Below are positions 21,399 to 23,909 of a DNA stretch of 55,101 bases, piece by piece (the first letter of the stretch is position 1; every line of letters begins with the position of its first letter). The notes below the pieces were generated by a model. That model ran no database searches and was not told the DNA's origin. It was given only the letters and a program-made list of their open reading frames with translations. The position numbers were made by a program, and so were the translations under genes. This DNA is from Chloroflexota bacterium (GTDB taxonomy: Bacteria > Chloroflexota > Dehalococcoidia > Lucifugimonadales > Lucifugimonadaceae): positions 1 through 55,101 of the forward strand of contig JAQBVG010000003.1 of assembly GCA_027623655.1 (NCBI GenBank), read 5' to 3'.

Positions 21399-22352
21399 CT
21401 AAACCAACCCCTCGGTCCAGTCGCCCGACAACACGGCGTCGAACATCCCGGCATTCTGATCGTTCCAACCGAACCGGTTCACCAGATTGAGTCGGTAAAT
21501 CAGTTCAAGCGCACTTAATCTCGAATTCAAGGCGTCATCGCTGAGATCACCGCGGCACTGCCTGACGAGCGGGTCGAGCAACGCCATGTCGAGCGGGTCG
21601 TTATAGACCTCTTCGAGTTGTTCAGGGACGAAGTTCCACGGGTAACGCCAGAATCGCAGCAACATGTCCAGTTCGTAATCGGGCGGCGCAAGTGCCATCC
21701 GGTCAAAGTCGAGGATCCCGACCAGTCCTCCCTGGTGATCGACAAGGACGTTGCCGAACCACAGGTCTCCGTGACATGAAACCCGGGGCTGATCGACAAG
21801 GGCCTCAGCCCACAATGCAAATGCTCCCTGCGACTGTGTCAGTACACGACCGGGCACGACCGAATCGACCGTACGGAGCGCACGGTTGAACGACTGCCGC
21901 ACGTGATTTCGCCAGTTTCCGGTCTCGGCATGCAACATCGCCGTATCCAGTCTGTACGCCTGAAGGTGGCCGACCGCATCAGCAAGACTCGTAGTGAGCC
22001 TGCGACGGGCGTCTCCATCCAGTCCCGGCCAGACGTTATAGGCGGTGGAGCCTTCGAGTCGATTGAGTATCACCCACGCTCTGCCTTCGAGCGCCCCGGT
22101 TTCAAGTACCCGGGGTGTAGCAACACCGGGTATTGCGAGGCCGCTAATTGCGAGCTCATGACTGAACCGCTCAGGCCGCCCAACCTCAGGGTCGATCTTG
22201 ATTACCGTTTCGTTCCCGATAAATACCCACGTGCCATAGCCAAATCCGTAGTCGACGGTGCTGCCAAGTTTGTTCGCAGCCCACTCACGCACGCGTCCAA
22301 GCGCGACGTGATCGTCCTTTTCATAGTTCCGCGACCAGGGGTTAATGAGCAT
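21399..22352 (-). CDS. Phosphotransferase of the aminoglycoside/choline kinase family
   Basis: This 317-residue protein-kinase-like small-molecule phosphotransferase has VIKID for the ATP-binding lysine (about 50-54), the catalytic loop CHGDLWFGN (His194 to Asn201) and ILDFDRM (Asp215/Asp217) for Mg binding. A WRYPWNFVPE segment follows in the C-terminal lobe. ATG 22352 is used. The broken relative downstream has a quite different N-terminal lobe, so they are family members rather than a recent duplication. Family substrates include aminoglycosides, homoserine, choline and sugars; the substrate here is not determined. Confidence 0.85.
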   Translation of the reverse strand: MLINPWSRNYEKDDHVALGRVREWAANKLGSTVDYGFGYGTWVFIGNETVIKIDPEVGRPERFSHELAISGLAIPGVATPRVLETGALEGRAWVILNRLEGSTAYNVWPGLDGDARRRLTTSLADAVGHLQAYRLDTAMLHAETGNWRNHVRQSFNRALRTVDSVVPGRVLTQSQGAFALWAEALVDQPRVSCHGDLWFGNVLVDHQGGLVGILDFDRMALAPPDYELDMLLRFWRYPWNFVPEQLEEVYNDPLDMALLDPLVRQCRGDLSDDALNSRLSALELIYRLNLVNRFGWNDQNAGMFDAVLSGDWTEGLV

Positions 22353-22498: not shown

Positions 22499-23347
22499 TC
22501 AGGCGGGCTTGTATGCCCGAAGTGTGAGATTAATCAGCGTAGTCTGCCAGTCGACCGCGTCCGGCCTGCTCCGCTCCTGCTTTAGCACCTCGGTGCCGGT
22601 GAATCCTGCTTCCTCGATCAGCTCAAGGTACTCGCTCATCACCGCAGCGCCGCCCACGCACGACACCCATTCCGCCGCTGACGCCCTGACTTCGTCGGGG
22701 AGTGGCGCTTCGGTAACCATGTCGGAAATGACGAATCGACCACCTGGCTTCAGGATGCGCTGAATCTCCGAGAATACGCGGTCTTTCTGTTCAGAGAGCG
22801 CGATCACGCAATTGGAAATAACGAGATCGACCGTGTTGTCAGGTTGCGGTATCGATTCGATGTGACCCAGTTTGAACACCACGTTCTCCGTGCCGAGATT
22901 GGCCGCATTCTTCTGGGCCAACTCGATCATCCGAGGTGTCATGTCTATACCGATGACGAACCCTTCATCGCCAACTTCCTTCGCGGCGAGGAAGCAGTCG
23001 ATACCGCCCCCGGAACCTAGATCAAGCACTGTTTCGCCGGGCTTAGCATCGGCAATGCCGACCGGATTACCGCATCCGCCCGATGCGCCTGCCGCCTCGT
23101 CAGGTAAAACCTGGCGCTGATCGGCTGAGTAGTACCTGTCAGTTGCCTTGCGCCTCGTCGGGTCCGCTGCCCGCTCGGCAGCAGACTCTGCAAGGGCACC
23201 GTACTGGTGTTTGACCGCCGCAGTAATAGTTTCGAGCTGCGTATGACTAATTTCAACTACAGACCCGTCGCTGCAGCAATCGTCACCACAGCATGCAGCG
23301 ACGGCGTCGATCGAGGTCAATGTTCCAAGGGGGTTCAAGTTACTCAT
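22499..23347 (-). CDS. arsM: Arsenite S-adenosylmethionine methyltransferase
   Basis: ArsM methylates As(III) to methylated arsenicals for detoxification. The 282-residue protein has a SAM motif VLDLGSGGGIDCFLAA and the three Cys sites expected of the family: ASGGCGNP, ISNCVIAL and EWVSCVGGA, which bind As(III). The N-terminus adds two more pairs, Cys19-Cys20 and Cys24-Cys25 (AACCGDDCC), a likely extra arsenic-binding tail. ATG 23347 is 3 nt after the stop of the PadR-type regulator, so they are one operon, presumably induced by arsenic. Confidence 0.93.
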   Translation of the reverse strand: MSNLNPLGTLTSIDAVAACCGDDCCSDGSVVEISHTQLETITAAVKHQYGALAESAAERAADPTRRKATDRYYSADQRQVLPDEAAGASGGCGNPVGIADAKPGETVLDLGSGGGIDCFLAAKEVGDEGFVIGIDMTPRMIELAQKNAANLGTENVVFKLGHIESIPQPDNTVDLVISNCVIALSEQKDRVFSEIQRILKPGGRFVISDMVTEAPLPDEVRASAAEWVSCVGGAAVMSEYLELIEEAGFTGTEVLKQERSRPDAVDWQTTLINLTLRAYKPA

Positions 23348-23350
23348 AGC

Positions 23351-23788
23351 TCAATCTCCAAATATGTCGGAATCAATAACCGTCGTAGTACAGCAGACTG
23401 GATCAATGCCCGCTTCCTTCACGGCCATCTCGATCTGCGGTAAAACCATCGACCAGGCAAGTGCCGAAGCACGATAAGCCTCAAATCCAAGACCAGACAG
23501 CGAGTAAATCTTGCGCTGGCGACCGCGAATCACCGCTGTCTCGAGTTCGACATAGCGCCCGATCTCCAGCTCTCTTAGCATGGGGTAGATCATGGCGTCA
23601 GTCGGTCTAGCATCGCAGCACAATGCGATTCTCGATCCAATTTCGTAGCCGTGCATCGGCCCCGAACTCAATTGCTGCAACATGAAAAATCGTAGAAGGC
23701 TTTTTCTGTTTAGAGTCTGCCAGTAAGCGACGTCGACAAGATTGTTTGCCGACGATCGGCTCGTTGTCGACTCGGTGGTCATGGTCAT
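23351..23788 (-). CDS. PadR-family regulator with Cys-Cys pairs, likely arsenic-responsive
   Basis: This winged-helix regulator shows the PadR pattern: LLRFFMLQQLSSGPMHGYEIGSRI, then MIYPMLRELE and the wing GRQRKIYSLSGLG. Numbered from the track's GTG (23806) it has Cys63-Cys64 in the loop before the recognition helix and Cys138-Cys139 near the C-terminus. Such vicinal Cys pairs, one in the DNA-binding domain, are plausible As(III) ligands. ATG 23788, 12 nt after GGAG, is preferred, giving 145 residues. It lies immediately upstream of arsM, and palindromes sit in its promoter. By analogy with ArsR it is inferred to repress its own operon and release on arsenite. Confidence 0.8.
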   Translation of the reverse strand: MTMTTESTTSRSSANNLVDVAYWQTLNRKSLLRFFMLQQLSSGPMHGYEIGSRIALCCDARPTDAMIYPMLRELEIGRYVELETAVIRGRQRKIYSLSGLGFEAYRASALAWSMVLPQIEMAVKEAGIDPVCCTTTVIDSDIFGD

Positions 23789-23828
23789 CAGGATTGTCCG
23801 CTCCACGTATCGGTACTCGATGTATACC

Positions 23829-23846
23829 TATCGTAACGATATATCG
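23829..23846 (-). promoter_or_regulatory. Overlapping palindromes, candidate operator of the padR-arsM operon
   Basis: TATCGTAACGATA (23829-23841, arms of six around one base) overlaps the perfect palindrome CGATATATCG (23837-23846). They lie about 40-60 bp upstream of the regulator's start in the divergent spacer with polA. Position and symmetry fit a dimeric repressor site. No experimental site is known to me for this regulator. Confidence 0.55.
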
Positions 23847-23903
23847 TCAGAATAGGCATGTCAACGATTCTCAGCATCAGCCGTGGTCTCCCGCACCAGA
23901 AGC

Positions 23904-23909
23904 TATAAT
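23904..23909 (+). promoter_or_regulatory. Perfect -10 hexamer upstream of polA
   Basis: TATAAT occurs 54 nt before the polA ATG at 23963. No convincing -35 is found 16-18 bp upstream. The hexamer also lies in the divergent region shared with the padR-arsM operon. Confidence 0.45.

Follow-up and report, generated by a model that had tools for sequence, protein, structure and literature searches.

The DNA analysed here, a 55,101-nucleotide window from the genus Candidatus Lucifugimonas of the marine SAR202 cluster, carries on its minus strand a PadR-family regulator gene followed by arsM, with a putative operator and promoter upstream of the pair. Among its relatives, the closest with a complete genome is Candidatus Lucifugimonas marina JH1073, of the same genus (genome G190, locus L036). 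The features of the locus are as follows.

23351–23806, minus strand: padR, gene of a predicted PadR-family repressor (PF03551, E 6e-9; 151 aa from the GTG at 23806)
22499–23347, minus strand: arsM, arsenite S-adenosylmethionine methyltransferase, 282 aa (over the NF008823 cut-off)
23615–23620, minus strand: codons of the vicinal pair C63–C64 (ALCCDARP), part of the conserved Cys cluster of the loop that leads into the recognition helix
23390–23395, minus strand: codons of the C-terminal pair C138–C139, in a flexible tail; lineage-specific
23824–23859, unstranded: 36-bp dyad, putative operator, ATGCCTA-n6-CGATATATCG-n6-TAGGTAT; conserved in congeners
23837–23846, unstranded: operator core CGATATATCG; conserved in sister species
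23836–23864, minus strand: predicted promoter, -35 TTGACA at 23864–23859 and -10 TATCGT at 23841–23836, with a 17-nt spacer

The regulator scores 36.2 bits against PF03551 in a Pfam profile search, above the curated cut-off of 27, and no ArsR/HTH_5 model is among its Pfam or NCBIfam matches, which places it, as a preliminary description of this DNA had proposed, in the PadR rather than the ArsR/SmtB family. Because its homologs begin MTT... and their starts match the ATG at 23782, the true padR start is more likely this ATG or that at 23788 than the GTG at 23806; in the 143-aa form of the protein the two Cys pairs are numbered 55–56 and 130–131. The gap of 3 nt between the padR stop and arsM, also noted earlier, is confirmed, and ArsM scores 273.9 bits against the NF008823 cut-off of 263; the window genome holds a single PadR by Pfam and one ArsM copy over that cut-off. 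ArsM matches PDB 5evj at E 4e-33 with the Cys columns aligned, its C92, C180 and C230 falling on conserved cysteines of the solved ArsMs 5evj and 4kw7. Its N-terminal CC-x3-CC (C19, C20, C24, C25) is present as described, though it is no special feature, since 45 of 45 neighbouring ArsMs carry a CC at the N-terminus. The next gene on that strand, about 146 nt past arsM, encodes an APH-family phosphotransferase (21399–22352, minus strand; PF01636, E 1.5e-23). The acr3 arsenite pump gene of the genome (G000:C158:2007-2996) sits on a separate 3.5-kb contig, on which neither an adjoining regulator nor an operator copy was seen. Just two ArsR-family genes are present in the genome; the proteins of both are without Cys and their neighbours, judged by eye, are SRPBCC-like and glyoxalase-like ORFs with no ars gene, which makes either of them an unlikely candidate for the real regulator of the window arsM.

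Related PadRs were collected from 393 genomes of the class and from a scan of a species-genome collection, giving 57 distinct loci, mostly metagenome-assembled. arsM lies directly downstream on the same strand in 45 of the 57, which argues that the pairing is not due to chance; a contig edge cuts off 3 of the 12 loci without a downstream arsM (L005, L057, L066). Other partners occur as well. An ArsP_1 permease follows padR at L029 and L033 within this set and at L138 outside the class, while at L032, on a Roseomonas plasmid, padR is followed by an oxidoreductase that matches ArsO weakly and by an ArsK-like transporter (E 6e-72, below the cut-off), and at L125–L127 it precedes an MFS transporter whose type, including an ArsK assignment, is ambiguous. 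Sampling beyond Chloroflexota is thin and comprises a single Eisenbacteria contig (L055) plus four plasmid records. PadR and ArsM are read as one open frame in L013 (655–1854, minus strand) and in L041, apparent natural repressor–enzyme fusions in two lineages for which sequencing error is the alternative. Two congeners carry a tandem arsM-like pair after padR (L133 in G190; L166/L180 in G366), the second copy being 52–59% identical to the window ArsM, and L015 shows a second PadR-like match (1085–1318, 32% identical) right after the first PadR and before arsM.

The preliminary description named conservation of both vicinal Cys pairs of the regulator as a check on its proposal. Cysteines counted in 39 intact, distinct arsM-linked PadR proteins bear this out for the loop before the recognition helix, which has at least one Cys in 39/39 and at least two in 37/39, and not for the C-terminal CC; the latter occurs in 16/39, which rejects it as a universal sensor, and most of the other members have wing Cys instead. 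CxGCC with two wing Cys after it is the most frequent arrangement, the two wing columns being Cys in 24 and 26 rows of a 35-row alignment, and the seven arsM-linked members that lack wing Cys all carry C-terminal Cys. The Lucifugimonas group, the window protein included, has a CCDA loop shorter by two residues and a C-terminal CC, and its wing is without Cys, a pattern that we read as relocation of the ligands. Overall the set ranges from two to seven Cys, placed in loop, wing and tail, with only two in L029, L138 and L129. All members carry loop Cys; some 43 ordinary PadRs of the phylum show no such cluster (L124 has one Cys close to that position), nor do five aligned solved PadR-family sequences. 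In the tree the ordinary PadRs lie beyond a 100/100 branch from the Cys clade; the exception, row L157, sits inside that clade on a branch of length 10 and was treated as mis-framed and not counted as a member.

The AF2 model of the window protein (pLDDT 87) has the PadR fold, a winged helix-turn-helix with a long C-terminal helix (97–123), and sets the first Cys pair in the loop between helix 45–53 and recognition helix 62–74 and the C-terminal pair in a low-confidence, disordered tail. The best PDB matches listed by Foldseek are PadR-family proteins, headed by Rv3488 (E 6.6e-7, TM-score by target 0.86).

Upstream of padR, the predicted promoter elements agree with consensus at 10/12 positions, and the 36-bp dyad overlaps both the -35 and the -10. 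The dyad has no match in shuffled sequence and, allowing up to three mismatches, is the sole such site in the 2.77-Mb window genome, which suggests that its control is local; both outer half-sites and the core are kept in the sister species of the genus. Of the two overlapping palindromes originally described in this promoter, which both lie inside the single dyad, CGATATATCG is real and conserved, whereas the 13-bp TATCGTAACGATA, although present in the window, is not conserved in the sister species and was rejected as an operator. Among the 57 upstream regions, 31 contain the half-site TAGGTAT/ATACCTA (mean 1.4, maximum 5 in dinucleotide shuffles) and 30 contain TTGACA (2.4 in shuffles), while several other lineages show a related layout in which GATATATAG is joined by one to three TAGGTAT repeats. 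Twelve arsM loci that lack padR contain no half-site within 700 bp. Of these, L168, L173 and L174 still have, as the window does, a divergent polA-like neighbour. At L008 (G248) and L043 (UBA1328) padR is broken by stops and the operator has decayed next to an arsM still recognisable at 69–75% identity. Ahead of the polA-like gene stands a TATAAT (23904–23909, plus strand), resembled by GGATTATA-type strings upstream in L006, L007, L011, L012, L025 and L043; these strings are probably the -10 of that divergent gene.

Gene order and pairing, conservation of the Cys residues and of the operator, overlap with the promoter and the predicted fold make up the sequence-level basis from which we infer DNA binding, repression, the ligand and release, and on this basis we consider it likely that padR–arsM is a PadR-type autorepressor switch released when a trivalent arsenical binds its Cys thiolates. 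The two genes would form an operon under the control of its own first gene, with a PadR dimer on the single 36-bp dyad covering the -35 and -10 and so blocking transcription. Arsenite, or methylarsenite made by ArsM, would then bind the two adjacent loop cysteines that precede the recognition helix, joined by extra thiolates from the flexible C-terminal CC in the Lucifugimonas lineage and from a third loop Cys or the wing Cys in most relatives. Such binding may distort the helix-turn-helix and displace the recognition helix, whereupon PadR would leave the DNA and padR and arsM would be induced. Against this switch we count that the dyad is imperfect (14/18 positions), that the C-terminal pair lies in a disordered part of the model and is not shared by all members, that two arsM-linked members (L007, L042) have a single loop Cys, that no recognisable arsenic gene was found near padR at L014, L017 and L129, and that many genomes of the class have arsM without a related PadR (arsM at E ≤ 1e-50 in 245/393, against a strong match to the window PadR in about 37). 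The original suggestion of a PadR-type arsenical sensor stands in that pairing, loop Cys and promoter operator are conserved across many genera, and gives way on the second Cys pair and on one palindrome. With somewhat less assurance, at a little better than even, we further propose that these proteins form a separate superfamily of PadR-fold arsenic-sensing repressors, of an origin independent of ArsR, with a metalloid site that has shifted its place on the scaffold (loop and wing Cys in most lineages, loop and C-terminal tail in Lucifugimonas) and a repressor that has fused to the methyltransferase at least twice.

The nature of the inducer is where the closest alternative lies. The switch could be the same and yet have as its physiological inducer not arsenite but methylarsenite, MAs(III), or some other trivalent organoarsenical, for which two vicinal thiols would be enough, a reading we regard as possible but clearly the less probable. 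No residue set other than the vicinal pair is shared by nearly all members, and the two-Cys proteins L029 and L138 precede ArsP_1 permeases, though these are very few proteins. Trivalent organoarsenicals are exported by ArsP and ArsK (PMC12607644), and both MAs(III)-selective ArsR repressors and an arsRM operon inducible by MAs(III) have been described (cited in PMC12124457). On the other hand, each of the 39 intact arsM-linked proteins has three or more Cys in total, as expected for As(III), since ArsR binds As(III) with three Cys (PMC12607644). ArsP_1 is moreover a broad model, and the best NCBIfam matches of the permeases concerned are other transporters, below cut-off.

Two further readings take arsenic out of the signal altogether. 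Vicinal Cys are reactive towards oxidants and soft metals, and the closest structural match, Rv3488, is linked to cadmium and zinc, so that the protein might sense redox state or electrophiles through its thiols, or else Zn, Cd or Cu, and sit with arsenic genes by chance; the permeases of L033 and L138, which match a Cu/Zn efflux model best in NCBIfam, below cut-off, point the same way. We think this improbable, because the neighbour is arsM in 45 of the 57 loci and another partner is ArsK-like, and we know of no role for arsM in defence against oxidants or Zn/Cd. A shade less probable still is that PadR autoregulates its operon without sensing arsenic, its Cys cluster being structural or zinc-binding, for which the four-Cys structural Zn sites that exist in other regulators offer a precedent. 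The number and position of the Cys vary among members in a way unlike a structural zinc site, and ordinary PadRs fold without any Cys cluster.

The arsenical-released PadR switch can be set beside several known systems. Like the ArsRs of arsRM and ars operons, the window PadR is a predicted winged-helix repressor next to arsM with an operator over the promoter, and in both families Cys thiols lie near the DNA-reading helix and the position of the site varies among lineages. As ArsRs place their Cys in helix 3 (Cys32/34/37 of R773), at the C-terminus (A. ferrooxidans) or across subunits (C. glutamicum) (PMC12607644), we regard the thiol site beside the reading helix as a convergent feature. The window protein differs from them in its PadR Pfam domain, PadR fold and long C-terminal helix, and in matching no ArsR model. 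It shares fold and domain order with the solved PadR-family proteins LmrR, Rv3488 and TA0346, from which, as from ordinary PadRs, it is set apart by the Cys cluster before the recognition helix. For the MAs(III)-selective ArsR of Chen, Nadar and Rosen (2017), binding of MAs(III) reportedly takes no more than a vicinal Cys pair, and arsP is said to be the partner gene; that protein belongs, unlike PadR, to the ArsR family, and its comparison with the window PadR is one of descriptions. TtSmtB of Thermus thermophilus binds the arsM promoter and physically contacts TtArsM (PMC8649762), and the two fused PadR–ArsM frames suggest a similar contact between repressor and enzyme, although TtSmtB is of the ArsR/SmtB family and the Thermus partners are separate proteins.

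PadR proteins and arsM operons are already known; judged from these sequences, a PadR-type arsenical sensor looks like an undescribed kind of switch, in that dozens of relatives pair the same regulator with arsenic genes. We found no PadR arsenic sensor in open-access full text, where PadR is mentioned without arsenic sensing, and an earlier mention in the subscription literature, outside the scope of this search, is possible. Control of arsM has been attributed to ArsR repressors (PMC6205960). If the proposed switch is real, the PadR solution would represent a convergent design with the thiol site placed comparably, next to the DNA-reading helix, and would explain how arsenic methylation in the ocean is controlled in a lineage without a Cys-bearing ArsR. 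It would also correct annotations that end at ‘PadR regulator’ and supply a compact new part for arsenic biosensors, and the natural relocation of Cys within one family would make the evolution of metalloid sites directly testable.
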